From an uncultured Desulfovibrio sp. (GTDB lineage: Bacteria > Desulfobacterota > Desulfovibrionia > Desulfovibrionales > Desulfovibrionaceae), in contig CAMBWG010000048.1 in NCBI GenBank assembly GCA_945871415.1, positions 1 to 10,435 of the forward strand: 10,435 bases of DNA. The letters are read 5' to 3'. Position numbers and translations under genes: made by a program. Positions within the stretch are counted from its first letter, which is position 1. Each line of letters opens with the position of its first letter. Below are positions 1 through 10,435 of this stretch, in pieces. The notes under the pieces are model-generated. The model was not told the DNA's origin, did not search any database, and saw nothing but the letters and a program-made list of their open reading frames with translations.

Positions 1-414
1 ATCAAGGAAAGCGATCTGCGTTTCGATACCTTCCGCTCCAGCGGCCCCGGCGGTCAGAGCGTCAATACGACCAGTTCCGCCGTGCGCGTCACCCATATTC
101 CCACGGGCATATCAGCCCAGTGCCAGAACGAGAAGTCACAGCACCACAACAAGGAATCGGCGCTGCGCATTCTCAGAGCCCGGCTTTACAATCTGGAGTT
201 GCAGAAACGCGAAGCCGAGCGTCAGGCCGAATATGCCGGCAAGGACGCCATCGCCTTCGGCAGCCAGATCCGGACCTACACGCTGCAACCCTACCGTCTG
301 GTCAAGGATCATCGTACCGGAACGGAAGTCGGCGATGTTGACGCCGTACTCAACGGACAAATCGACGTTTTTCAGCACGACTATCTGCTTTATCGCCACG
401 AACGGCAACGCTAG
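1..414 (+). CDS. prfB: Peptide chain release factor 2 (RF2), 3' part
   Basis: Codons run in frame from base 1, so the N-terminal part lies outside the window; 137 residues and a TAG stop are present. RF2 recognises UGA/UAA stop codons and triggers release of the finished protein in the ribosomal peptidyl-transferase centre. The catalytic GGQ is at residues 17-19, in the context [10 protein letters not shown]. The following [18 protein letters not shown] and the [12 protein letters not shown] helix are typical of RF2 rather than RF1, and the [15 protein letters not shown] tail closes domain 3. RF1 would normally read ECQDERSQ here. The codon-recognition loop and the usual programmed frameshift site lie upstream and cannot be judged. 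The TAG stop is also the first three bases of repeat copy A. Family is certain; RF2 over RF1 is highly likely. Confidence 0.95.
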
Positions 415-520
415 ACGGCGGCACAGCGCCGCCCGGCCAAAAGCAAGCGGAAAAACCATGCTTTTTCCGCGACCAGGCCGTATGGTTTGAAACGCACAGC
501 GCTTCAAGCTGAAAAGTTCT
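412..520 (-). repeat. Intergenic repeat, copy A
   Basis: On the - strand this matches copies B-F: a TTTTCAG start, then GTTTCAAACCATACGGCC, a hairpin, and a GC-rich end GGCCGGGCGGCGCTGTGCCGCCG. The inner hairpin is GCGGAAAAA (447-455) pairing with TTTTTCCGC (462-470). The terminal arm seen in copies D-F between GCCGCCG and GCTCTA is missing, so GCCGCCG joins TCTAG directly. The outermost TAG is the prfB stop codon. Confidence 0.85.
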
Positions 521-522
521 GA

Positions 523-560
523 TGCACGACCGCGGGACACGGTCGTTCCGCGGTCGTGCA
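523..560. other. 13-bp perfect inverted repeat after prfB
   Basis: TGCACGACCGCGG (523-535) pairs perfectly with CCGCGGTCGTGCA (548-560) across a 12-base loop. It follows repeat copy A, where a terminator for prfB would be expected, but neither strand has a T-run after the stem. It may be an RNA 3'-end stem, an atypical terminator, or a protein-binding palindrome. Confidence 0.6.
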
Positions 561-674
561 GGACGGTTTACAGGAGAGGTTCACGACGCCCCTGCCGCCC
601 CAAGGTGGATGTATGCATACTCAGATTGACGGAGCGACACGGTATCGCCGCGTCCACCTCCGCCCGGAAAAGCC
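561..674. other. Leader region of the GGDEF-like/MinD-like unit
   Basis: This 114-base gap holds no convincing reading frame. It contains a 10-bp palindrome GTATGCATAC (611-620) and a TTGACG (625-630) that resembles a -35 box, but no good -10 box follows at normal spacing. The promoter of the downstream pair should lie here, but I cannot place it with confidence. Confidence 0.3.
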
Positions 675-1589
675 ATGTCATCACGAAACGCCGACTTTGA
701 ACTGCTGACGCGCGAACTGCGTGCGCTGCGTCTGCTCATGGAGCAGGATGAGCCCCCTGCGACACCGCAGGACATTCTCGTCATGCGGCGCGTCAGCGGT
801 CTGCCGCTCAAACGCTGGGACGAATTTTGCCGACGTTGTCCCCTCCGCCGCTGGTGCGCCCTCCCGCTGCCCGAGGAAATGGGGAAAAATCTGGATATCG
901 CTCTGGCGGATGTCTGTCCGGACATGCGGCGCGACGGTCAGCCCACCCCGGCGAGTCCGCCGGATTTTATGAACGTTCTTGCCTCCATGCTCTCGCGGGA
1001 GATGCTGCACCAGCAGCTGGAACGAGAATTGCAGAGACTGGAGCGCAATGGCGGACAATTGACGCTGGTCTGCGGAACGCTTCAGCCATCCCATCTGGAT
1101 GCGGCTCCGGGCATCTGCCCGGAGCGTCCTGCTGTCGCTTCCTCCGCAACCGAAGACTCCCCCGCGCAGCTTCTCGGGGAGCGTCTGCTTTACGAAACGC
1201 TGCGGCAGCGCCTGGACGCCTGCGACAGCATCGGCAATCTGGAAAAAGGAGCCCTTCTGGCCATTCTTCCCGGATACGGTCTGTTGCGCGGTCGTCTGCT
1301 GGCCGAACGGACGCGCACAGCCTTTCGCCTGCGCTGCAAGGGACTTGTGCTCGGCAAACCCGGCGTCATTGCCCCTTTTACACAGGCCGGCTGCGCCTTT
1401 GGCATCGTTACCGTCACGCAAAGCGAGCATCCCAAGGCCAATGCTCTGCTTCAACGGGCCCGGCAGGCGCTTGCCAGGGCGCGGGAAAGCAAGGAGCATC
1501 TTTACGAAGACACCGGCGCCCCCCTGGCTGAACGAGCCACACTGGTTCATTCCCAGGAAAAACGCTTTCTTTTTTTTGGCGGAGAATAA
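675..1589 (+). CDS. Degenerate GGDEF-domain protein with N-terminal Cys motif
   Basis: A 304-residue soluble protein with no signal peptide or membrane segment. The C-terminal part (about 120-282) follows the GGDEF diguanylate-cyclase fold: RNGGQLTLV for the first strand, LLGERLLYETLRQRLDACDSIG for the helix and turn, AILPG after the signature, AGCAFGIVTV matching the TVSIG strand, and a final ALLQRARQALARARE helix. The GGDEF signature itself is replaced by NLEKGAL (188-194) and the metal-binding aspartate of strand 1 is absent, so cyclase activity is unlikely; binding or signalling is more plausible. The N-terminal part has Cys52, Cys55, Cys61 (CX2CX5C) plus Cys81, a possible metal site. The start ATG has only a weak GGAAAAG upstream. 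The stop lies 3 bases before the MinD-like gene, so the two are probably translationally coupled. Fold assignment is from pattern only. Confidence 0.75.
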   Translation: MSSRNADFELLTRELRALRLLMEQDEPPATPQDILVMRRVSGLPLKRWDEFCRRCPLRRWCALPLPEEMGKNLDIALADVCPDMRRDGQPTPASPPDFMNVLASMLSREMLHQQLERELQRLERNGGQLTLVCGTLQPSHLDAAPGICPERPAVASSATEDSPAQLLGERLLYETLRQRLDACDSIGNLEKGALLAILPGYGLLRGRLLAERTRTAFRLRCKGLVLGKPGVIAPFTQAGCAFGIVTVTQSEHPKANALLQRARQALARARESKEHLYEDTGAPLAERATLVHSQEKRFLFFGGE

Positions 1590-1592
1590 CCA

Positions 1593-2396
1593 ATGCCCAA
1601 TACCACGCTCAGCATCGCCATCATGAGCGGCAAAGGCGGTGTCGGCAAAACAAGTCTGGCCCTCAACCTTGCCTGCGCCCTGCACCAGAACAGCTTCAAG
1701 ACCCTGCTTATCGACTGCGATCTTGGCCTTGCCAATCTTGACGTCCTGCTCGGCATCACGCCGGAAGGCAATCTGCAGAATGTCCTTCTGGGCGACAAAC
1801 CTCTGGAAGAAGTCCTGTATCCTGTTGAAAAACAGGGCTTTGACGTTCTCCCCGCCGCCTCGGGCGTTCCCGAACTGGTGGACATGAACGCCGATACCCG
1901 GGATCTGCTGCTGCGGCGGCTGGAGCCCTCGCTGGGACGCTATGATTTTGTCTTCATGGATCTTGGCGCCGGTATTTCCGACACAGTCCAGAGTTTCGCC
2001 GCTATGGCCGCTCTGCGTATCGTGGTCGTCACCCCCGAGCCGACGTCGCTCACGGACAGCTACGCCATGATCAAGGTACTCAACAACCGCTACGGCCTGC
2101 GTAACTTCATGGTCGTCGTCAACGAAGCCGCCTCGATCAAGGAAGCGCAGGATACCTTTGAGAAACTGGCGGGAGCCTGTCGTCACTTCGTCCACTTTGA
2201 ACCCGTCATGCTCGGCCCGGTTCGGTTCGACGAAAACGTTTCTGAAGCCGTCTGCCTCCAGAAGCCGCTCATGCGCTGCTATCCCGGCTCGCCGGCCGCA
2301 CAGGATATCCAGAGCATCGCCCAGCGCCTGCAAAAAGCCCGTCTCAACATGCTGGACTGGCTCGGACAGCGCGGCATCCTGCATCTGGATGTCTAG
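1593..2396 (+). CDS. MinD/FlhG-like ParA-family ATPase
   Basis: 267 residues with the full MinD/ParA signature: deviant Walker A SGKGGVGKTS (12-21), LIDCDLGLANLDVLLGI around switch I (39-55), FMDLGAGISD at switch II (121-130, Leu124 where MinD usually has Thr), and TPEPTSLTDSYAMIK (147-161). These proteins dimerise on ATP and act at membranes or poles to place division, flagellar or other complexes. The LGLANLDVLLG and PEPTSLTD wording is closest to the FlhG/FleN/YlxH branch, but the N-terminal DQAxxLR motif with which FlhG activates FlhF is missing and no flagellar gene is nearby. The C-terminal helix (about 241-260) could be amphipathic and membrane-binding. The ATG is 3 bases after the preceding stop and its GGCGGAG ribosome site lies inside that gene. 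The TAG stop is the first three bases of repeat copy B. Confidence 0.9.
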   Translation: MPNTTLSIAIMSGKGGVGKTSLALNLACALHQNSFKTLLIDCDLGLANLDVLLGITPEGNLQNVLLGDKPLEEVLYPVEKQGFDVLPAASGVPELVDMNADTRDLLLRRLEPSLGRYDFVFMDLGAGISDTVQSFAAMAALRIVVVTPEPTSLTDSYAMIKVLNNRYGLRNFMVVVNEAASIKEAQDTFEKLAGACRHFVHFEPVMLGPVRFDENVSEAVCLQKPLMRCYPGSPAAQDIQSIAQRLQKARLNMLDWLGQRGILHLDV

Positions 2397-2501
2397 AGCA
2401 TTTTCAGGTTGAAACGCGTTGCGTTTCAAACCATACCGGCCTGTCGTCTCGCGGAAAAAACGCGGTTTTTCCGCTCAATTCAGGCCGGGCGGCGCAGCTC
2501 T
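2394..2501 (+). repeat. Intergenic repeat, copy B
   Basis: Starts TAGAGCATTTTCAGGTTGAAACG, with a short inverted repeat TTGAAACGCG/TGCGTTTCAA, then CCATACCGGCCTGTCG. The inner hairpin GCGGAAAAA (2451-2459) pairs with TTTTTCCGC (2466-2474). It ends GGCCGGGCGGCGCAGCTCT, apparently a short form lacking the last arm. Its initial TAG is the stop codon of the MinD-like gene. Confidence 0.85.
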
Positions 2502-2521
2502 TCATCGCATGCCGACCTTTC

Positions 2522-2553
2522 AGGCAATGTCTTTCGGAGGCATTGCCTTTTTT
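2522..2553 (+). terminator. Rho-independent terminator of the GGDEF-like/MinD-like unit
   Basis: AGGCAATG (2522-2529) pairs with CATTGCCT (2541-2548) and is followed by six T (2548-2553). It lies beyond repeat copy B, so the repeat is transcribed as part of the 3' untranslated region. Confidence 0.85.
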
Positions 2554-2644
2554 CATGCCTCTGCGCGTCCCCCGTTCCTCCGGTACGGGAGCCCCTGCCT
2601 GCCGCCCGACGCAAAAATTTTTTCCTGCCCCTTTTGCCTCCCGC

Positions 2645-2673
2645 TTTACCTCTCTGCATAAAAACAGTATTGT
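2645..2673 (+). promoter_or_regulatory. Candidate promoter for the HU-dapA unit
   Basis: TTTACC (2645-2650) and TATTGT (2668-2673) are 17 bases apart, each matching sigma-70 consensus at 4 of 6 positions. If used, the leader before the HU-type gene is about 200 bases. A perfect TTGACA also occurs at 2776-2781 but has no good -10 box. The rest of 2554-2880 holds no convincing gene; a small hairpin (CCATC/GATGG, about 2853-2866) sits shortly before the HU ribosome site. Confidence 0.35.
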
Positions 2674-2880
2674 AGAACCCCACAACGTCTGTGCCGGCTT
2701 CGATCAGGATGAAAAAGCCCGCTGCAAGGGAACTTCCGGGAGCAGAAAGCGTCTCTGCTGCCGCCAAAATGGACATTGACAATCACTTTTCCCGTCAGCG
2801 ACGCAGGGCATCCGCCCCAATCTTCCGGTGCCGCGTTACTCCGAAAAGAACCCATCCGAGGATGGTGGGCTGGAGGATAT

Positions 2881-3156
2881 ATGAACAAAAGTGAACTCAT
2901 CAGGACTCTGGCGGAAGAAACGGATCTCCCGTTTGAAGACGCCTCGCTGGTCGTCAACACCTTTTTCGATGCCATGAAGGAATCGCTCATTGCCGGGGAA
3001 CGTATCGAAATCCGCGGCTTTGGCAGCTTCAAGATCAAGGAGTATGAAGGCTACGCCGGGCGCAATCCCAAGACCGGCGAAAGTGTGGACGTGGTGCCCA
3101 AGCGCCTGCCCTTCTTCCGGGCAGGCAAGGAACTGAAGGAATTCATCAACCAGTAA
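2881..3156 (+). CDS. HU/IHF-family DNA-binding protein
   Basis: 91 residues, the usual length for this family of small basic dimers that bend DNA and organise the nucleoid. Visible marks are the N-terminal MNKSELIRTLAEET helix, the central IEIRGFGSFKI strand (42-52), the arm GRNPKTGE (60-67) with the DNA-intercalating proline at 63, and the closing PFFRAGKELKEFIN helix. The start at 2881 is preferred over an upstream in-frame start at 2776 because a strong GGAGG lies just before it (GGAGGATAT then ATG) and because the family begins here. IHF-like features (RGFGSF, PFFRAGKEL) are present, but I cannot separate HU from IHF subunits by eye. dapA follows after 36 bases, probably in one transcript. 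Confidence 0.93.
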   Translation: MNKSELIRTLAEETDLPFEDASLVVNTFFDAMKESLIAGERIEIRGFGSFKIKEYEGYAGRNPKTGESVDVVPKRLPFFRAGKELKEFINQ

Positions 3157-3192
3157 CCGTCTCTCGTTCACCCGTAGTTCCAAGGAGTCACT

Positions 3193-4071
3193 ATGCTGTT
3201 TCACGGTGCAATGACCGCACTGGTCACCCCTTTCAAAAACGGCGTCATTGATGAAGAAGCCTACCGCAAACTCATCGACTGGCAGATTGAGCAGGGCATT
3301 CAGGGGCTGGTGCCGTGCGGCACCACCGGCGAATCGGCAACCCTGACCCATGAGGAACACGAACGGGTCATCGAAATCTGCATCGAGCAGGCCGCCGGAC
3401 GCGTTCCCGTTCTGGCAGGGGCCGGCTCCAACAATACCGCCGAAGCTATCCGGCTGGTGCGTTTTGCCAAAAACGCCGGCGCGGACGGCGCGCTGCTCAT
3501 CACCCCTTATTACAACAAACCCACGCAGGAAGGTCTGTATCAGCATTACGGCGCCATTGCCCGGGCCGTGGATCTGCCTCTTGTGCCCTACAATGTGCCC
3601 GGCCGCACGGGCTGCAATCTTCTGCCTGCCACACTGGCGCGACTGGCGAAGGATTTTCCCACCATCGTGGGCGTCAAGGAAGCCACGGGCGACATGGCGC
3701 AGGCAAGTCTGACCATTGAGAGCTGTCCCAAAGATTTCAGCCTGTTGTCCGGCGATGACTTTACCGCCCTGCCCCTCATGAGCATCGGCGGAACCGGCCT
3801 CATCTCCGTGACATCCAACATCGTGCCCGACAAGGTGTCCCAGATGTGCAAGGCAGCGGCAAAAGGCGACTTTACCGCCGCCCGCAAGATTCACCACGAG
3901 ATCTTCGACCTGCATCATGCCATGTTCATGGTGACAAATCCCATTCCTGTTAAAACGGCCCTGGCGCTCATGGGCCGCATGGATATGGAAATGCGCCTGC
4001 CGCTCTGGCCCATGCAGGATGCCGACAGAGAAAAGTTGCGCGGCATACTTCAGGCGCACGGCCTTGTCTAG
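3193..4071 (+). CDS. dapA: 4-hydroxy-tetrahydrodipicolinate synthase
   Basis: 292 residues, full length for DapA, which condenses pyruvate with L-aspartate semialdehyde in the cytoplasm at the first committed step towards diaminopimelate and lysine. The (beta/alpha)8-barrel landmarks are all visible: GTTGES with the Thr44-Thr45 proton-relay pair, Tyr107 in ITPYYNKP, Tyr133 in PYNVPGRTG with substrate-binding Arg138, the Schiff-base Lys162 in VGVKEATGD, LLSGDD (185-189) and the GGTGLISV loop (199-206). Related aldolases (NanA, KDG aldolase) share the lysine, but Thr44-Thr45, Tyr107 and Arg138 together favour DapA. A good AAGGAG (3182-3187) precedes the ATG. The gene closely follows the HU-type gene. 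No lysine riboswitch was recognised upstream. The TAG stop opens repeat copy C. Confidence 0.96.
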   Translation: MLFHGAMTALVTPFKNGVIDEEAYRKLIDWQIEQGIQGLVPCGTTGESATLTHEEHERVIEICIEQAAGRVPVLAGAGSNNTAEAIRLVRFAKNAGADGALLITPYYNKPTQEGLYQHYGAIARAVDLPLVPYNVPGRTGCNLLPATLARLAKDFPTIVGVKEATGDMAQASLTIESCPKDFSLLSGDDFTALPLMSIGGTGLISVTSNIVPDKVSQMCKAAAKGDFTAARKIHHEIFDLHHAMFMVTNPIPVKTALALMGRMDMEMRLPLWPMQDADREKLRGILQAHGLV

Positions 4072-4205
4072 AGCGTTTCAACTTTGAGGCGTGACACAGC
4101 GCCGACCGGCCTGTCGCTTCGCGGGAAAACCACGTTCTTCCGCGAAACGACAGGCCGTATGTTTTGAAGCGCAGCACGTTTCAAATCAAACTGAAAATAT
4201 TCTGG
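4069..4205 (-). repeat. Intergenic repeat, copy C
   Basis: Inverted relative to copies B and D-F. It begins TAGAGCGTTTCAACTTTG on the + strand and ends with CAGTTTG-like sequence and TTCTGG, whose complement CCAGAATATTTTCAG matches copy D. It holds the longest stem of the family: GGCCTGTCG (4108-4116) with CGACAGGCC (4148-4156), then TTCGCGG (4118-4124) with CCGCGAA (4140-4146), separated by one mismatch. No other terminator for dapA is seen, so this stem may end or stabilise the dapA transcript. Its TAG is the dapA stop codon. Confidence 0.85.
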
Positions 4206-4207
4206 AT

Positions 4208-4246
4208 AAAAAAAGGCGGCCTGCGTCCCTCGGGACACAGGCCGCC
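4208..4246 (-). terminator. Rho-independent terminator of dnaA
   Basis: GGCGGCCTG (4215-4223) pairs with CAGGCCGCC (4238-4246), with an additional inner GTCCC/GGGAC stem. On the - strand the stem is followed by seven T (4208-4214 read as A on +). It lies about 110 bases past the dnaA stop. The sequence between (4247-4359) has two more small hairpins, CAAGACG/CGTCTTG and CCCCGC/GCGGGG, and no gene. Confidence 0.85.
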
Positions 4247-4359
4247 GTGGCTGGAAAGGACAGGCGAGGCTGCCGACCACCCCTGTTCCTGCAAGACGCT
4301 CTCTGGACGTCTTGAACATTCTTTCACCCCGCACCACGCCTTGCGGGGAATATTCTTCT

Positions 4360-5853
4360 TTACGCCGACGCGCAGACGCCCGCGTTACGCTCGATCAGGC
4401 TCACAGCCCGGGCAATCTGACGCCCGACGCGCGTTTCCTTGCACAATTCGCGTTCCACCGAGGAAATACCCTTGATAACGGTGGTATGACGCCGATTGAA
4501 GCGCGAACCGATTTCCGCCAGCGACATTTCCGTATGCTTGCGCGCCAGGTAATAGATGGTATTGCGGGCCAGTACCAGTTCCTGCCGCCGCGACGGCGAG
4601 GCCAGCTGTTTCTGAGTCAGCCCGAAGCTTTCGCAGACAAGACGGACTATGGCGTCAAAATCGGGGCCGCATTCCACATCGGCATATTGCGACAGAACCT
4701 CAAGCGCCAGTTCGGTATTCAGATTGCAATTGAGCAGACGCGCCTTGAAAACAAGGCTGTTCAGACAGGATTCCAGCTGCCGCACATCGCCCTGAAGGCG
4801 GTTGGCCAGCAGATCGCAGACCGTGCCGGGCAGCATGACCTGCCAGCTCCGGGCCTTGCGTTCCAGAATCTCGCGGCGCATATCCTCGTCAGGCCGGCTG
4901 ATGGCCGACACAATACCCGAGCAGAAATGCGATACCAGCTGCGAGTCCACCTGCTGCAATTCCCGCGGCGAAAAGGTGCTGGTGAAGACAACGCGTCCGC
5001 CGTATTCCTGCAGGTGCTTGACCACGCTCAGCACCATATCCTGAATTTTTTCCTTGCCGCGCAGAAAATGTACATCCTCAAGCAGCAGCACATCCAGCTG
5101 ACGCAGACGGGCCTTGAATTCATCCACTTCTCTGGTGCGCAGGGCCGACACAAAGCGGGCGGCGAAGTCTTCGGCAGTCAGATAGCCCACCTTGGAACCG
5201 AGCCCGGCCTTGTACATGGTCTGTCCCACGGCCTGGCTCACATGCGTTTTTCCCAGCCCGGGAGGCGCGCTGATGAACAGCGTGGAGACGCAGCCGGAGC
5301 TGCGGCAGACATCCTGAGCCGCTGCAACCGCAACATTGTTGCTGGGACCCACGACAAAATCGTCGAAGGAATGCCGCCACTCATTGCGGGGGCGGGAGAA
5401 GGACGCCACGCCAAGCGGCAGATACTGCTGTGTGGGCGCGGGAGACGCGGCAGACGGCGTGACAAGAATCGGAGCCGCAGACACGGAATCTGACGCGGCA
5501 GTCGTCAGCGTCCCGTGCGCATCGCCTGCGTCAGGCCCTTCGGCAGCGGGCATTGACGCGGCAAGCGCCTCGGCAGCATTCGTCATCGTCACAGCCGCCG
5601 CAGCTTCCTGCGATCCGGCCAGCACTTCCACAGACACTTTCTCGGGATTCAGCCGGAGCACGGCAGCGGCGGCCTCGCGTATCGAGGCCAGCAGACGCGT
5701 CCGCAGCCAGTTAGCCACGAAGGCATTGGGAGCACGCAGCGTCAGATGCTCGCCCCGCACCTCGCCATGCAGAGGAGCTATCCACACCTTGTAGACGCCC
5801 GAATCCAGAGATTCTTGAAGCTTTCTAGAGATTTCCAGCCATTGTTCTTGCAT
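4360..5853 (-). CDS. dnaA: Replication initiator DnaA, divergent form
   Basis: 497 residues from the ATG at 5853, which has AAGGGGG just upstream; a TTG start at 5889 would add 12 residues but has no ribosome site. Domain I (WLEISRKLQ...VWIAPLHGEV, 5-32) binds helicase and other partners. An Ala-rich, low-complexity domain II (about 80-150) follows. Domain III is the AAA+ motor with Walker A APPGLGKTH (196-204), Walker B LDVLLLEDVHF (253-263) and box VIII GDVRQLES (355-362). Domain IV (about 400-490) is the DNA-binding helix-turn-helix ending FNRRHTTVIKGI. Oddities against E. coli DnaA: Gln305 and His309 where Arg281 and the Arg285 finger are expected, Glu259 in Walker B, Phe294 in sensor 1 (TSTFSPREL), and RRHTTV in place of RDHTTV. 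There is no dnaN beside it. It may be a second dnaA paralogue or a lineage variant. Confidence 0.93.
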   Translation of the reverse strand: MQEQWLEISRKLQESLDSGVYKVWIAPLHGEVRGEHLTLRAPNAFVANWLRTRLLASIREAAAAVLRLNPEKVSVEVLAGSQEAAAAVTMTNAAEALAASMPAAEGPDAGDAHGTLTTAASDSVSAAPILVTPSAASPAPTQQYLPLGVASFSRPRNEWRHSFDDFVVGPSNNVAVAAAQDVCRSSGCVSTLFISAPPGLGKTHVSQAVGQTMYKAGLGSKVGYLTAEDFAARFVSALRTREVDEFKARLRQLDVLLLEDVHFLRGKEKIQDMVLSVVKHLQEYGGRVVFTSTFSPRELQQVDSQLVSHFCSGIVSAISRPDEDMRREILERKARSWQVMLPGTVCDLLANRLQGDVRQLESCLNSLVFKARLLNCNLNTELALEVLSQYADVECGPDFDAIVRLVCESFGLTQKQLASPSRRQELVLARNTIYYLARKHTEMSLAEIGSRFNRRHTTVIKGISSVERELCKETRVGRQIARAVSLIERNAGVCASA

Positions 5854-5929
5854 GGCCCCCTTGTAGCCCCAAAAGGGTACGGGCCGCAACAGGCGGAAAT
5901 TGAATAATATCAGGGAACAAGATTTTGTC

Positions 5930-6125
5930 GCCGCCTGATACTTAAGATTATAACTTATTGATTTTTATTGATTTTTTATATTCCAATCTAGACTTTTTCA
6001 AAGCTGATAATCAAAAAGTCCGCAGGGTTAAAAACACTCTAGACAATTATCAACAAATTCATCAACAATAAATCAACAGTATAAATTTATTTTTTCATCA
6101 TTTTTTGAAAGTTTTTGCTTTTTTT
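5930..6125. other. AT-rich origin-like region upstream of dnaA
   Basis: Strongly AT-rich in an otherwise GC-rich window, and without a gene. It holds a perfect tandem 10-mer TTATTGATTT (5955-5964, 5965-5974), three ATCAACA boxes on the + strand (6049-6055, 6061-6067, 6072-6078) spaced 12 and 11 bases apart, and T/A runs to 6125. The first box is in TTATCAACA (6047-6055), one base off the DnaA-box consensus TTATCCACA. An inverted repeat GACTTTTT (5991-5998)/AAAAAGTC (6013-6020) encloses TGATAATCA, and TCTAGAC occurs twice (5987, 6038). Together these suggest oriC or a dnaA control region. No exact DnaA box was seen. Confidence 0.5.
5947..5952 (-). promoter_or_regulatory. Candidate -10 box of dnaA
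   Basis: A perfect TATAAT on the - strand (ATTATA on +), about 95 bases before the dnaA ATG. No consensus -35 box sits 16-18 bases upstream, where there is AT-rich repeated sequence instead. Transcription could depend on DnaA or another factor binding that repeat. Confidence 0.45.
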
Positions 6126-6197
6126 ATTTTGTCACCAGCATGTGCATATCTTTGTGCGTAACACGCCTTATCCCCTCCCGGGACTTTTTTTCAGGCA

Positions 6198-6224
6198 CAA
6201 AAAAAGGCCGGCTTTCGCCGGCCC
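6198..6224 (-). terminator. Rho-independent terminator of the beta-barrel gene
   Basis: GGCCGGC (6206-6212) pairs with GCCGGCC (6217-6223) over a TTTC loop. On the - strand it is followed by seven T (6199-6205 as A on +). It lies downstream of repeat copy D in the direction of transcription, between the beta-barrel gene and the AT-rich region. Confidence 0.85.
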
Positions 6225-6254
6225 AGGGGCTCAATCTGTTTGTCAGACAGGCTG

Positions 6255-6277
6255 TTTCGGGCAAGAACTGCCCGAAA
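6255..6277. other. Perfect 9-bp hairpin between repeat D and terminator
   Basis: TTTCGGGCA (6255-6263) pairs with TGCCCGAAA (6269-6277) over a 5-base loop. It would be in the 3' untranslated RNA of the beta-barrel gene, before the terminator. It has no T-run after it in that direction. Confidence 0.6.
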
Positions 6278-6298
6278 AAAACGCTTTCTGACGCTGTT

Positions 6299-6441
6299 CC
6301 AGAACATTTTCAGTTTGAAACGCGTTACGTTTCAAACCATACGGCCTGTCGCTTCGCGCGAAAAACACATTCTTCCGCTCACTTCAAGCCGGGCGGCGCC
6401 GTGCGCGCCTCACGCTGCCTTTTCAAAGGCAGAATGCTCTA
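6299..6441 (+). repeat. Intergenic repeat, copy D
   Basis: Begins CCAGAACATTTTCAGTTTGAAACG and contains TTTCAAACCATACGGCCTGTCG, a stem region and GGGCGGCGC. It ends with a small hairpin CTGCCTTT/AAAGGCAG (6415-6432) and GCTCTA. The final CTA (6439-6441), read on the - strand, is the TAG stop of the beta-barrel gene. Confidence 0.85.
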
Positions 6442-7104
6442 GAAACCGAAACGCAGACCGAGCATAAATTCATTGTTGTAGGGATCGTTTTCAAAGGTCA
6501 TGTTACCCAGCGAGACTTCGTTATGTCCGAGGCTCACAAAGCGATAGCCCAGGTCGACAGCCAGATTTTCATTGAAGCTGTAGCTCACGCCGACGCCGAG
6601 ATTCCAGGCGAAGTTGGTCATGGTATCATTGGCCGAACCAGCCCAGCCGCCCTGATTCCACTTGTACTCGGCATAGTTGAAGGCCATGCCCAGACCGCCG
6701 CCCACATAGGGGGTCAGGCCGAAATCGGTATGGAAGTCATAGTACAGGTTGGCAAACAGGGTCGTGCTGTTCCAGGTACCCTTGACCGTCCCGGAAGCGC
6801 CGCCGCGATAGACGTCCCATTCATGCTCGTTGTTGCCGCGCAGACCCAGCTCCAGCTCGAAACGCAGCGGCACCAGATAGTACTGCCAGAAATCGAAGCC
6901 TACAGCCAGAGCGCCCCCCATCGTGAACTGATCATGACGATCCATGGAACCGCTGAACGGAGCGTTATCCTTGGAGATGTCACCCGAATTCTGCAACGAA
7001 AGCAGGAATTTGGGCGCAAGGTACAGACCCGTGCCCTCGGCGGCGGCCATACCCGGCACCATCAGCGCGGCAACCAGAGCCACAGCAGCCAGAAAGCGTT
7101 TCAT
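6439..7104 (-). CDS. Outer-membrane beta-barrel protein, OmpA/OmpW-like
   Basis: 221 residues from the ATG at 7104, which has GGAGGA four bases upstream; an ATG at 7116 overlaps that ribosome site and is less likely. A clear signal peptide (MKRFLAAVALVAALMVPGMAAA, predicted cut after residue 22) sends it to the periplasm. The mature part is rich in aromatic and glycine residues with alternating strands typical of a small barrel: GLYLAPKFLLSL, GGALAVGFDF, LRFELELGLRG, TTLFANLYYDF, PYVGGGLGMAFNY, WNLGVGVSYSF, AVDLGYRFVSL and FMLGLRFGF. The C-terminal Phe fits the signal read by the BAM insertion machinery. The length suits an 8-stranded barrel; the ligand or role is unknown. It seems to be a single-gene unit with a long leader, repeat copy D and its own terminator. 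Confidence 0.88.
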   Translation of the reverse strand: MKRFLAAVALVAALMVPGMAAAEGTGLYLAPKFLLSLQNSGDISKDNAPFSGSMDRHDQFTMGGALAVGFDFWQYYLVPLRFELELGLRGNNEHEWDVYRGGASGTVKGTWNSTTLFANLYYDFHTDFGLTPYVGGGLGMAFNYAEYKWNQGGWAGSANDTMTNFAWNLGVGVSYSFNENLAVDLGYRFVSLGHNEVSLGNMTFENDPYNNEFMLGLRFGF

Positions 7105-7480
7105 ACATTCCTCCATGAGGTAAGAATCGGGGCCGCCTCCGAGGCTGCTCCCACCCTCATGCCGTCATCCCGGATGGAAAGCAGACCTCCGGCCCGAAAA
7201 TCGGAACCCCGGAACCGCTGTCGCAAAGCGGCTTCCGCCGGGCATCCCGACTCCCATCGGCCCAGCTTGTTCGTGACGCCGCACAGGGCAGCGCCCGCCG
7301 CGGAACCGTTCCGCGGCGTCCTCCGACGCAGAGTGCGGCGGCGACATCGAATCCCGTTGGATGATTTTTCATTTTACCGTCAAAGTCAAGAAAAGTTCTG
7401 GAATAATCCTAAAAAAAATCGAGACTAACTCTATAGAAAACTTGTAAAAAACAAAAAAAACGCGCATGTCACGCCGTCGC
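7105..7480 (-). promoter_or_regulatory. Long leader region of the beta-barrel gene, with a 21-bp palindrome
   Basis: No gene is supported here. A perfect 10-bp inverted repeat with one central base lies at 7297-7317 (GCCGCGGAAC, C, GTTCCGCGGC). An AT-rich stretch at about 7370-7465 probably holds the promoter: on the - strand there is TTGACT near 7388 and a TATAGA near 7434, but neither pairs with a good partner at normal spacing. Transcription from there would give a leader of roughly 250-320 bases. I did not recognise a known riboswitch. Confidence 0.4.
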
Positions 7481-7482
7481 CG

Positions 7483-7627
7483 GAGCATTTTCAGTTTGAA
7501 CCGCGTTGCGTTTCAAACCATACGGCCTGTCGTTTCACGGAAAAGCGTACTTTTTCCCCTCACTTCGGGCCGGACGGCGCTGTGCCGCCGCCTCGCGCTT
7601 CACCTTTTTCAAAGTTGAAACGCTCTA
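7483..7627 (+). repeat. Intergenic repeat, copy E
   Basis: One of the fullest copies: GAGCATTTTCAGTTTGAACCGCG, TTTCAAACCATACGGCCTGTCG, a stem region, CGGACGGCGCTGTGCCGCCG, then TTTTTCAAAGTTGAAACGCTCTA. The two ends are imperfect inverted repeats of each other. It does not abut a stop codon; it lies between the terminator at 7632-7672 and the beta-barrel promoter region. Confidence 0.85.
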
Positions 7628-7631
7628 AAAC

Positions 7632-7672
7632 ACTCAAAAAGGGCGGCCCGCCTTCCGGCAGTGCCGCCCTCA
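7632..7672 (-). terminator. Rho-independent terminator of the permease gene
   Basis: AGGGCGGC (7640-7647) pairs with GCCGCCCT (7663-7670); on the - strand five T follow (7636-7640 as A on +). It sits between repeat copies E and F, about 200 bases past the permease stop, and would stop read-through into the beta-barrel leader. Confidence 0.75.
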
Positions 7673-7674
7673 AT

Positions 7675-7800
7675 CCAGAGTATCTTCAAACCATACGGCC
7701 TGTCGCTTCACGGAAAAAGCGTGCTTTTTCCGCTCACTCCGGGCCGGGCGGCGCTGTGCCGCCGTATCGCGTTTTACCTTTTTCAAGGCTAAAACGCTCT
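7675..7800 (+). repeat. Intergenic repeat, copy F
   Basis: Lacks part of the left arm (CCAGAGTATC joins directly to TTCAAACC), then runs CATACGGCCTGTCG, a perfect hairpin CGGAAAAAGC (7711-7720)/GCTTTTTCCG (7723-7732), GGGCCGGGCGGCGCTGTGCCGCCG, and ends AAAACGCTCT. Same orientation as copy E, with a terminator between them. The 76 bases between it and the permease stop carry only a weak GCGTCT/AGACGC stem. Confidence 0.85.
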
Positions 7801-7876
7801 GATTTTCGCGTCTTACGTATTGCAGACGCTTTTGCCGCAGCCTGTCGCGCTTCCGCTACGCCGCGAAAAACAGAAG

Positions 7877-8623
7877 CTATCCAATCCAGCCCAGCACTTC
7901 ACGTCCCAGCAGAAAGAGCCCCAGAAGGCAGCAGATGGCGCCGATACCCCGCCGCAGCATCTGTACCGGCAGACGCTTTGCGACGGCGACGCCCGCCACA
8001 AAGCCCGCGACCTGAAACAGCCCCATCAGCGGTAAAGCGGCCCAGTCCACATTCCCGTTCACGGCGCAGCCGACAGCCCCGGACATGGCCGTTGCCAGCT
8101 GATAGGGCTGCGCCAGCCCTATGGCCGTAAGGGGATGAAAGCCCACAAGAATCATCCACGGAATGGAAAGCACCGGCCCCCCGGCTCCGGTAAGCCCCGC
8201 CATCAGTCCTGTTGCCGCGCCGATCAGAAACAGGCCGCCGGGTGTGTGCCAGAAAGGCGCTTTTTTTCCCTGCCCCGTGGGGCGGAATACGCCGACACCG
8301 GAGAACAGCACCATGATCGCCAGAAGAACAATCAGCGGACTGCCCGGCAGAAGGGAGGCCAGCAGCCCGCCCGGAGCCGCGCCGGCAAGGCCGCCCAGCG
8401 CAAAGGGAACAGCCTCCCGCACGGAAAAGGTGCGCAGCCTGCAACCATACATATAGATGCCGGCCACGGCTACCGCCATGAAGGAAGCCAGCGTTGTTCC
8501 CATGGCCATGTGCGTCTCATAGCCGCTCCACAGCACCAGCGCAGGAGGCACCAGAATCCCCCCCACGCCGGAACAGCCCACAATAATGCCCACCACAAGA
8601 CACACGATAGAAATTACCAGCAT
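7877..8623 (-). CDS. TauE/SafE-family membrane permease
   Basis: 248 residues from the ATG at 8623, preceded by CGGGAAG; an in-frame extension to 8821 is hydrophilic, Arg-rich and overlaps the promoter of the opposite operon, so it is rejected. About eight hydrophobic segments fill the protein. The family's internal duplication is visible: GCSGVGGILVPPALVL near the N-terminus and GLTGAGGPVLSIPWMIL in the second half. TauE/SafE proteins are inner-membrane carriers, several linked to export or uptake of sulfur-containing anions such as sulfite, sulfoacetate or thiosulfate; the substrate here cannot be read from sequence. It is divergent from the ORP-type operon, with about 196 bases between the starts, so shared control or a role in supplying an anion to that system is possible but unproven. 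Confidence 0.88.
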   Translation of the reverse strand: MLVISIVCLVVGIIVGCSGVGGILVPPALVLWSGYETHMAMGTTLASFMAVAVAGIYMYGCRLRTFSVREAVPFALGGLAGAAPGGLLASLLPGSPLIVLLAIMVLFSGVGVFRPTGQGKKAPFWHTPGGLFLIGAATGLMAGLTGAGGPVLSIPWMILVGFHPLTAIGLAQPYQLATAMSGAVGCAVNGNVDWAALPLMGLFQVAGFVAGVAVAKRLPVQMLRRGIGAICCLLGLFLLGREVLGWIG

Positions 8624-8763
8624 GAACTTCCCGCTTTTCTGCTTTCCATAAGAGTATCGATGTTGTTGCCATTTCCGCAGGGCGCTTACCCTACGCCTGC
8701 CCTCTGCCGGACGCAAGCCGCGATCCGGGAAGGTTCCCGACGGAATATTTCCCGGCCGTCCTC

Positions 8764-8791
8764 TTGACATGTCCGCGGCAAAGATTATGCT
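8764..8791 (+). promoter_or_regulatory. Promoter of the ORP-type operon, with inverted repeat
   Basis: A perfect -35 box TTGACA (8764-8769) and a -10 box TATGCT (8786-8791) are 16 bases apart, giving a short leader of about 20 bases to the ATG at 8820. CTCAT (8790-8794) and ATGAG (8806-8810) form an inverted repeat over the likely start of transcription, a possible operator. I saw no sigma-54 (GGC/TGC type) promoter. Confidence 0.6.
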
Positions 8792-8819
8792 CATTTGTGC
8801 AAAACATGAGAGAAATACC

Positions 8820-9503
8820 ATGCCGCGTCCCAGACAATGCCGCTATGTGGCCGTTGCGCCCCATGTCACCTATTTCAAGCCCCGGGGCATTCCCATGACT
8901 GCGCTGGCAGAAGTACGCCTCAGTGTGGACGAGCTGGAGGCTCTGCGGCTGGCGGATCTGGAGGGCATGACCGGAAGCGAGGCCGCGCGCTGCATGCGCG
9001 TCTCGCGGCACACTTTCGGGCGCACGCTGGCCGCTGCCCGCCATACGGTGGCGCAGGCCCTGTGCCGCGGGCTTGCCCTGCGCATCGAGGGCGGCACCTA
9101 TGCCGTGGCCGACGTCGGTACGGCCGCGGTATCCGCAAAGGAGAACATCATGCAGAAAATAGCCATTTCCAGTGAAGGCCCCACGCTTGACGATGCCGTT
9201 GATCCCCGTTTCGGACGGGCGGGCGGCTTTGTAATCCTTGCTCTGCCGGACATGACGCCGCAGTATCTCGACAACGGCGCATCCCAGACCATGAGCATGG
9301 GCGCGGGCATTGAAACGGCCGAACGGATGGCCCGCGAGGGCGTGCAGGTCGTGCTGAGCGGCTACGTGGGCCCCAAGGCCTTTGAAGCGCTGACCGCGGC
9401 GGGCATCAAGGTCTGCCAGAATGTGGACGGCGGCAGTGTGCGCGAAGCCGTGGAGCGCTTCGTCAAGGGCGAGCTGCCCTTTGCCGACGCTCCCAATAAA
9501 TAG
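8820..9503 (+). CDS. DUF134 HTH protein fused to a NifX/ORP-like domain
   Basis: 227 residues. The first 100 are a DUF134 domain: MPRPRQCRYVAVAPHVTYFKP, the LSVDELEALRLADLEGMTG helix (35-52), then a helix-turn-helix-like EAARCMRVSRHTFGRTLAAAR (54-74) and ALRIEGG. From about 111 is a dinitrogenase iron-molybdenum cofactor (NifX/NifB-type) domain: MQKIAISSEGPTLDDAVDPRFGRA, a central GIETAERMAREGVQVVLSGYVGPKA, and GSVREAVERFVKGEL. In Desulfovibrio the orange protein ORP is a domain of this type holding a Mo-Cu-sulfur cluster. The start at 8820 is chosen because the upstream ATG at 8769 overlaps the -35 box. The linker has its own ribosome site and ATG (9150). The N-terminal part may bind the operon's own control region. 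Family assignment is confident, cluster type is inferred. Confidence 0.88.
   Translation: MPRPRQCRYVAVAPHVTYFKPRGIPMTALAEVRLSVDELEALRLADLEGMTGSEAARCMRVSRHTFGRTLAAARHTVAQALCRGLALRIEGGTYAVADVGTAAVSAKENIMQKIAISSEGPTLDDAVDPRFGRAGGFVILALPDMTPQYLDNGASQTMSMGAGIETAERMAREGVQVVLSGYVGPKAFEALTAAGIKVCQNVDGGSVREAVERFVKGELPFADAPNK
9138..9152 (+). promoter_or_regulatory. Internal ribosome site and start inside the fusion gene
   Basis: AAGGAG (9138-9143), six bases, then ATG (9150-9152), in frame with the fusion gene and exactly at the first residue of the NifX/ORP domain (Met111). Initiation here would give a free 117-residue ORP-like protein. The signal is stronger than the weak GAGAG before the full-length start at 8820. 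Confidence 0.6.
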
Positions 9504-9512
9504 GAGTCGGTC

Positions 9513-10400
9513 ATGCGCATTGCCATTGCCAGCGGCAAGGGCGGAGCCGGAAAAACCAGCGTCACCGCCTCTCTGGCCCGCGTCTGGAACAGTCCTCTTG
9601 TGGCTGTGGATACCGATGCGGAAGCCCCCAATCTGCATCTCTTTCTCAAGCCGCGTCTTTTCGAGAGCATGCAGGCCGGGCTGGACGTGCCCCGGCTGGA
9701 TGTCGCCCGCTGCGACGCCTGCGGGCGCTGCCGCGATATCTGCCGTTACAAGGCCATTGCCGCCTTTGCCGGGAAAATCTCCCTGTTCCCCGACATGTGC
9801 CACGGCTGCGGCGGCTGTTTTGCCGTCTGCCCGCATGATGCGCTGGAAGTGACGCAGCGCGAGCTCGGCGTCATCGAAAACGGCGATGCGCTTGACGGAA
9901 CCATCCGTTTCCTCATGGGAAGGACGCGCATCGGCGAAGCCATGACGCCTCCTCTGCTCCGCCGGCTGCACGCCCGTCTGGACGCCCTGCTTCAGGAAGC
10001 CGACGCCGACGCGCTGCTGGATGCCCCTCCGGGCGTCAGCTGTCCGGCCGTGACGGTGGCCCGCGATGTGGACATACTGCTTCTTGTGGCCGATCCCACG
10101 CCCTTCGGCTTCCATGATTTCCAGCTTGCCCATCAGGCATTCAGCCCGCTGCAAAAGCCTCTTGCCGTTGTTGTGAATCGTGCCGGAGCCGAGGGCAATA
10201 CCGACGGCGACGAAGCGGTGCGCGCCTACTGTCGCCGGGAAGGGCTTCCCCTGCTGGCCGAACTGCCCTTTGAACGCGCCGCGGCCGAGCAGTATGCCGC
10301 CGGATCGCTGCTGGCGGATCTTTCGGACGTCTGGCGGCAGCGCTTTGCCGCTCTGCGCGATGCCCTGCGTCAACTGGGGCGGGAGGTGTCCCATGCGTGA
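9513..10400 (+). CDS. Mrp/MinD-type ATPase with two [4Fe-4S] motifs (ORP operon)
   Basis: 295 residues. The deviant Walker A is ASGKGGAGKTS (6-16), followed by AVDTDAEAPNLHLFL (31-45). A ferredoxin-like insert carries CX2CX2CX3C twice (Cys67, 70, 73, 77 and Cys96, 99, 102, 106), each fit to hold a [4Fe-4S] cluster. The C-terminal part restores the ATPase fold with LLDAPPG (switch II), LLLVADPTPFGFHDFQLA and VVVNRAG. Proteins of this make-up belong to the anaerobe Mrp/ORP complex and are thought to build or handle the ORP metal cluster, by analogy with Mrp/Nbp35 iron-sulfur carriers. The start follows the fusion gene by 9 bases, and AGGAG overlaps the preceding TAG. The last 8 bases overlap the next gene, so all three are one operon. 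Confidence 0.92.
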   Translation: MRIAIASGKGGAGKTSVTASLARVWNSPLVAVDTDAEAPNLHLFLKPRLFESMQAGLDVPRLDVARCDACGRCRDICRYKAIAAFAGKISLFPDMCHGCGGCFAVCPHDALEVTQRELGVIENGDALDGTIRFLMGRTRIGEAMTPPLLRRLHARLDALLQEADADALLDAPPGVSCPAVTVARDVDILLLVADPTPFGFHDFQLAHQAFSPLQKPLAVVVNRAGAEGNTDGDEAVRAYCRREGLPLLAELPFERAAAEQYAAGSLLADLSDVWRQRFAALRDALRQLGREVSHA

Positions 10401-10435
10401 AATCGTCGTCATCAGCGGCAAGGGCGGAACGGGTA
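10393..10435 (+). CDS. Second Mrp/MinD-type ATPase, 5' end only
   Basis: Fourteen codons (MREIVVISGKGGTG) are in the window. They start at an ATG overlapping the previous stop by 8 bases, with GGGAGG (10381-10386) upstream. The beginning of a deviant Walker A, SGKGGTG, matches the neighbouring ATPase. Paired ATPases of this kind are usual in ORP gene clusters. The frame is open at the window edge. Confidence 0.85.
   Translation, partial: MREIVVISGKGGTG

Follow-up and report, generated by a model that had tools for sequence, protein, structure and literature searches.

Several insertion sequences (ISs) and short mobile repeats of other bacteria can be compared with a repeat of about 148 bp that occurs in six copies in a 10,435-nt stretch of DNA (hereafter the window) from an uncultured Desulfovibrio sp. 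(GenBank assembly GCA_945871415.1, contig CAMBWG010000048.1, positions 1 to 10,435 of the forward strand). In the part of the genome examined, about one gene in 10 ends on a piece of this transposon, the end of the element being at the same time the stop codon of the gene. We consider it very probable that the repeat is a miniature inverted-repeat transposable element (MITE) of the IS630/Tc1-mariner type, which inserts at the TA of YTAR sites (CTAG, CTAA, TTAG, or TTAA) and rebuilds the stop codon that it enters, its gene-side end then being kept by selection. IS630 itself reportedly prefers the TA within CTAG, a preference ascribed to Tenzen and Ohtsubo (1991), and the repeat shares this preference. 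Unlike the repeat, IS630 is autonomous, and the portion of text on IS630 consulted here does not mention an association with stop codons.

The other described systems are compared on the basis of excerpts of the papers cited. RUP of Streptococcus pneumoniae, found with IS630-Spn1, is 107 bp long, has a mean GC content of 27.5%, is present in 108 to 110 copies, and carries stop codons in all six frames (PMC3049150, PMC2229807). Like the repeat, it is an intergenic IS630-type MITE with TA-containing targets, but the repeat is longer (148 bp), has 55% GC, and is tied to gene stops, a comparison of length and composition rather than of aligned sequences (PMC3049150, PMC2229807). ISY100 of Synechocystis belongs to the IS630 family and inserts almost only at TA, which is duplicated; it is an autonomous IS and not a MITE, and the excerpt gives no CTAG preference for it (PMC2170065). 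MITEPsy1 of Pseudomonas syringae is IS5-like and has similar targets (CTAG or YTAA), but its duplication comprises 4 bp instead of 2 bp (PMC3189936). In Coxiella burnetii, QMITE2 is a MITE at the 3' end of a gene where it affects the stop; this concerns one gene of a single strain, which is extended in frame, and the stop is not rebuilt (PMC5896051). Among the open-access matches listed for stop codons together with IS630, MITEs, or TA sites, and for Desulfovibrio MITEs, no title or abstract opening describes a stop-rebuilding MITE.

The repeat and its coincidence with stop codons

The draft genome (435 contigs, 2.56 Mb, 79% complete) was sampled through the window and 60 further contig stretches, together 754,440 nt or 30% of the draft. 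A 148-position profile of the repeat gave 228 matches in this sample, corresponding to 218 copies once overlaps were removed and to approximately 4% of the sequence, and at least 150 matches were found in the whole assembly. Nine of the 61 sequences sampled (e.g., L034:1-102 and L062:1-125) have a copy on their first three bases; the repeat therefore breaks the assembly, and the copy numbers are underestimates.

The repeat is short and has no transposase of its own. Terminal inverted repeats (TAGAGCATTTTCAG and TAGAGCGTTT) are present at its two ends, with hairpins between them; read inward, the left end is TAGAGCATTTTCAGTTTGAAA, and the commonest forms of the right end are TAGAGCGTTTCAACTTTGAAA, TAGAGCGTTTCACCTTTGAAA, or TAGAGCGTTTTGCCTTTGAAA. 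An earlier note on the window had given the complete ends as C-TA-GAGC, which stands as a preference and not as a rule. A C precedes the TA in 90 of 166 left ends and in 73 of 163 right ends, and CA or TG is often read in place of TA. These counts are built on raw hits, a few of which overlap; raw hits also underlie the 109-copy site table, the table of inner and far bases, the mismatch counts against the IS ends, and the 112-copy rate test discussed below. With a covariance model (E 1e-10), the repeat was detected in 13 of 61 genomes including the source genome, all belonging to one genus, and, under stricter filters, in none of 24 genomes that represent other genera of the order. At least 97 public stretches contain an exact 22-base core; their records are labelled Desulfovibrio, in some cases Desulfovibrionaceae, and in one case Mailhella.

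Genes were predicted with a caller seeded from the window genes and iterated, yielding 605 genes with 580 complete stops. The sample holds 322 intact element ends on 210 copies. Sixty of these ends, each from a different copy, coincide exactly with the stop codon (54 TAG and 6 TAA) of a gene that reads into the element, so that 60 of the 580 complete stops are occupied. Every other offset within 300 nt was seen at most three times. In 421,705 nt of a relative (G021), 28 of 121 copies lie at stops, and 28 of 319 gene stops are occupied. The other 150 of the 210 copies with intact ends in the source genome touch no called stop. A majority of copies away from stops had been named in the earlier note as an outcome that would count against its explanation; it leaves the mechanism standing, since YTAR sites between genes serve equally well as targets.

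Target site and comparison of empty and filled sites

The empty sites reconstructed for 109 full copies are mainly CTAG (28), CTAA (15), TTAG (15), and TTAA (14), which corresponds to a 21-, 13-, 12-, and 6-fold enrichment over all TA sites, coding ones included. Compared with non-coding TA sites only, CTAG is enriched approximately 12-fold (17 of the 76 copies away from stops; 64 of 3,385 sites). The CTAG preference suggested earlier is thus borne out, the fuller preferred site being YTAR. In copies with A as the far genomic base, the opposite end has G as its inner base in 64 cases and A in 11. As the inner base is mostly G whatever the target's own base, only TA is duplicated; such a 2-bp duplication is the pattern of Tc1/mariner and IS630 elements and speaks against a 4-bp duplication of YTAR. 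Among stop-abutting copies, the far TA is followed by A or G in 34 of 36 in the source genome and in 13 of 15 in G021.

The source genome and G021 were further compared at the sites of full-length copies (64 of the 133 hits in G021; the set from the source genome lists at least one site twice, L015 being equal to L082). The flank search gave 14 sites each way, of which eight fall within less than 10 nt of the empty-site size and six are cleanly readable. Three of them lie at a stop. L159:2192 of G021 is filled and L057:11003 of the source genome is empty, with TAT|TAG in both; L205:888 of G021 is filled and L067:9070 of the source genome is empty, with GAA|TAG in both; and L063:943 of the source genome is filled and L198:8437 of G021 is empty, with TAG in both and a filled gene that is two codons longer. 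All three pairs were checked against the gene calls. At these sites the stop predated the element, and the silent rebuilding of TAG that had been proposed agrees with all three empty sites already holding the stop. An intergenic pair (L161:6152 of G021 and L037 of the source genome) shows a clear TTAA site with a bare TA; the remaining readable sites are L159:8956 of G021, with an extra A, and L028:697 of the source genome, with ATAG.

Six stop-abutting genes have usable orthologues (at least 45% identity and 60% coverage), and the difference in C-terminal length is zero in five of them and one codon in the sixth. As an outgroup, G006 (400 kb) offered usable orthologues for two stop-abutting genes. 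G064 (375 kb) carries a release-factor gene that is 99% alike, yet only one site could be aligned (0 of 111 full copies one way and 1 of 18 the other), and it lacks the TA.

The copies in the window and their genes

A covariance model (R1) was built from 34 sequences. It finds all six copies of the window (each E 5.8e-24 or better), which agrees with the six related copies reported earlier, although D and E match by construction because both are among the 34 building sequences. The copies and the adjoining stops are as follows.

412 to 414, + strand: stop TAG of an RF-1-domain gene that enters the window at position 1; adjoins copy A, not an intact element end
413 to 515, - strand: copy A; BLAST covers 7-113 of the 148-base query; R1 394-524, E 7.9e-29
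2394 to 2396, + strand: stop TAG of a ParA-family (FlhG-like) gene at 1593-2396; equals the left end of copy B, offset 0
2394 to 2495, + strand: copy B; left end intact, right part decayed; R1 2391-2554
4069 to 4071, + strand: stop TAG of a dapA-like gene at 3193-4071; equals the right end of copy C, offset 0
4069 to 4204, - strand: copy C; right end at 4069; R1 4065-4207
6300 to 6441, + strand: copy D; full length; R1 6297-6445
6439 to 6441, - strand: stop TAG of an outer-membrane beta-barrel gene (start near 7104 or 7116); equals the right end of copy D, offset 0
7481 to 7627, + strand: copy E; full length, intergenic, away from a stop; R1 7478-7631
7683 to 7801, + strand: copy F; left ~30 nt missing, intergenic, away from a stop; R1 7673-7805

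The elements meet genes by either end and in both orientations, as had been observed (B via its left end, C and D via their right ends). The coincidence of terminal TAG and gene stop, described earlier for four copies, holds for B, C, and D, whose ends are intact at offset 0. At copy A the stop is real but the element is truncated: approximately 35 nt of the right end, the side facing the upstream gene, are missing, and no intact end was scored. The TAGA at this position could be a remnant of the element end.

Orthologues of the window genes were compared in the best-scoring 29 other genomes of the 34 to 40 with a match, per gene. The outer-membrane gene at copy D has the same end residue, a C-terminal Phe, in 29 of 29 relatives; its stop is TAG in 15, TAA in 12, and TGA in 2 of them, with YTAR in 27. 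In G024 and G033 a copy of the repeat family of their own lies on this stop (profile E 2e-11 and 4e-21), presumably through independent insertions. The FlhG-like gene at copy B has a variable C-terminus among relatives, and G017 carries a copy on its stop (E 2e-5). For DapA at copy C, counting by eye gave 15 TAG (8 of them CTAG), 7 TAA, and 7 TGA; none of the 29 relatives has the element on this stop, and in G017 a weak match (E 0.25) starts just past it. The gene at 1-414, which may be RF-2-like judging by its motifs, ends in TGA in 26, TAA in 2, and TAG in 1 of the 29 relatives, and 23 of them have exactly the same length.

By eye, TAGAGC also stands at the stop of the outer-membrane gene in G020. 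Outer-membrane barrel genes (L399, L405, and L413) end with a Phe codon followed mostly by TAR, which is a ready-made YTAR site.

A candidate mobilizer

A transposase with TAGAGC-type ends, for which the earlier note had proposed to look, was found in the relative G021 and not in the source draft. The G021 element belongs to the IS630 family, is approximately 995 bp long, encodes a PF13358 transposase over two overlapping frames, and has the ends TAGAGCAATTCAACTTTGAAA and TAGAGCGTTTCAACTTTGAAA. TAGAGCGTTTCAACTTTGAAA is also the form most often found at the right end of the repeat in the source genome, where 14 of 163 right ends are identical over 21 bases and 92 of 163 lie within three mismatches; 3,000 TA sites from anywhere in the sample, repeats included, mostly differ from the IS end at 11 to 18 positions. 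Matches to the C-terminal half of the transposase were found in 10 of 41 genomes of the genus, G021 included, and the source genome gave none. We infer that a transposase of this type mobilizes the repeat. The left end of the G021 IS copy lies on the TAG that closes a transporter frame, and the other flank resembles part of a different gene; the contig may therefore be chimeric, and this site was not used.

A PF13358 gene of the source genome (L091) was considered as the source of the transposase and rejected, given that it lacks matching ends on its flanks and its domain match reaches no further than position 115 of 146. L091 (contig C172) and L147 (contig C84 of G021) are lone PF13358 frames of approximately 280 residues, 93.5% alike, each beside what by eye appears to be a sigma-54 activator frame and neither flanked by the ends of the repeat; the PF13358 frame is a remnant or a domesticated gene.

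Proposed mechanism and alternative explanations

The IS630/Tc1-mariner type with insertion at TA, as put forward in the earlier note, is corroborated by the empty and filled pairs, the 2-bp duplication, and the IS630-family element with matching ends in a relative. The element would insert at the TA of a YTAR site, above all CTAG, and the TA would be duplicated. Since the element body starts with G at both ends, TA followed by G gives TAG in either orientation, and insertion at a TAA or TAG stop would leave an in-frame TAG on the gene side and an unchanged protein. Afterwards the element end would be the stop of the gene and be kept by selection while the other end decays. Because TAR is barred in frame inside genes and YTAR is scarce in the genome, stop codons make up approximately half of the non-coding CTAG sites and carry 23-29% of the intact-end copies. 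An insertion at the last codon would be harmless because the target cannot occur in frame inside genes and the ends complete the stop. A target barred in frame combined with stop-completing ends is thus a simple rule by which a transposon can reach hundreds of copies in a compact genome. By this rule, any element that inserts at TA and has a body starting with G or A should behave likewise, and it can be tested whether stops and 3' regions derived from transposons are neutral or used.

Several observations weigh against this mechanism. The left ends of the repeat fit the IS ends less well (4 to 6 mismatches in 124 of 166), and an IS630 element with such ends gave no hit in the source assembly, which is 79% complete. 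The excess of A or G beyond the far TA is not significant when compared with copies away from stops (34/36 versus 126/152, P 0.12). Two of the eight sites with a near-zero size difference are not cleanly readable, and in the pair L063:943 and L198:8437 the genes differ by two codons just before the stop. At the locus of copy A, 26 of 29 relatives carry TGA and not TAR. Finally, stops preceded by A (ATAR) were hit 10 times when 2.0 hits were expected (P 5e-5), an excess that a simple site preference leaves unexplained.

The ATAR excess could be accommodated if the element or its transposase recognized a stop codon or the end of a gene as such, e.g., via translation or transcript ends. That 60 of 210 copies sit at stops, and that copies per kb are fewer in divergent (0.79) than in convergent gaps (1.82), would also fit such recognition. 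Against it stands a rate test on 112 copies that are intact at both ends, contig-edge stops being left out; the rate for each NTAN context was set by the 76 full copies that lie away from stops. With the context fixed, 36 insertions at stops were observed versus 31.6 expected (Mantel-Haenszel odds ratio 1.37, P 0.24). The absence of an excess follows from stops supplying many YTAR sites: outside genes there are 70 unoccupied CTAG stops versus 64 other CTAG sites. Targeting of stops beyond sequence context is thus unsupported, and we regard it as improbable.

Other alternatives are less probable still. Random insertion near gene 3' ends, with the protein cut short by a new stop from the element, draws on the consensus, where one frame contains TAG and another has TGA at position 16, and on MITEAba12, for which an excerpt describes a MITE-made premature stop in one gene (PMC6382973). 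Truncation predicts the TGA at position 16 to be common, but it was met once, versus 60 cases at offset 0; moreover, the three empty sites already carry the stop, and the outer-membrane protein has an identical length in 29/29 relatives, which makes truncation very unlikely. We assign equally little weight to an IS5-type MITE with a 4-bp duplication of CTAG or YTAA. The YTAR preference is indeed common to the repeat and MITEPsy1 (excerpt of PMC3189936), but an inner G in 64 of 75 copies with a far A does not agree with a 4-bp CTAG/YTAA duplication, the intergenic empty site is compatible with TA only, and the IS that shares the ends of the repeat encodes a PF13358 transposase.

Hardly more plausible is a REP-like element that depends on a Y1 (RAYT) transposase for its movement, or an RNA structure under selection such as a terminator. 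Hairpins occur in all six window copies (z -2.1 to -5.4), some covariation is seen (64 double-change cells versus 19.5 after shuffling), and copies between tandem genes show an orientation bias of 115:58. The covariation is modest, however, with half of the double changes (32 of 64) falling in one pair that resembles a subfamily marker, and the window gave no Rfam match at gathering thresholds. Y1_Tnp (PF01797) has no match in the source genome (79% complete), one frame of 144 residues in G021, and one contig-end fragment in G064, and both the TA duplication and the presence or absence of copies between genomes show mobility. A later role of the IS630-type repeat in the 3' untranslated region (UTR) may exist.

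Fate of the element after insertion

At the far ends of stop-abutting copies of the source genome, TA is kept in 15 of 36 cases versus 85 of 226 ends of other copies; in G021 it is kept in 2 of 15 versus 58 of 120. If the near ends decayed like the far ends, many genes would lose their stop and read on in frame, and the consensus frame continuing from the stop is open through the whole element from the left end and for approximately 44 codons from the right end. No gene that had lost an element-borne stop and read on in frame was seen in the source genome sample or in G021; in each genome a single gene continues beyond an intact end, in both cases in a different frame. The retained TAGs would be accounted for by purifying selection acting on the stop that the element carries, the comparison being indirect since stop-abutting copies are recognized by their stop.

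Between tandem genes, the repeat has its right end toward the upstream gene in 82 of 123 cases in the source genome and 33 of 50 in G021 (jointly 115:58, P 2e-5, an optimistic value because the two genomes may have inherited some copies from a common ancestor). The same bias is seen in copies that do not touch stops (77:38), and copies per kb amount to 0.79 and 0.80 in divergent and 1.82 and 2.86 in convergent gaps (source genome and G021, respectively). The orientation bias may point to an influence on transcripts that depends on direction. It is conceivable, though we hold it rather doubtful, that the family serves as an everyday supplier of stop codons, with about one-tenth of genes on a TAG kept by selection, and as a directional 3' UTR (a transcript end or stability signal).

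Decay by internal deletion was also observed: the 141-nt copy at L159:2911-3051 of G021 corresponds, at the same site in the source genome (L057:10401-10431), to a 29-nt palindrome that comprises little beyond the two ends.

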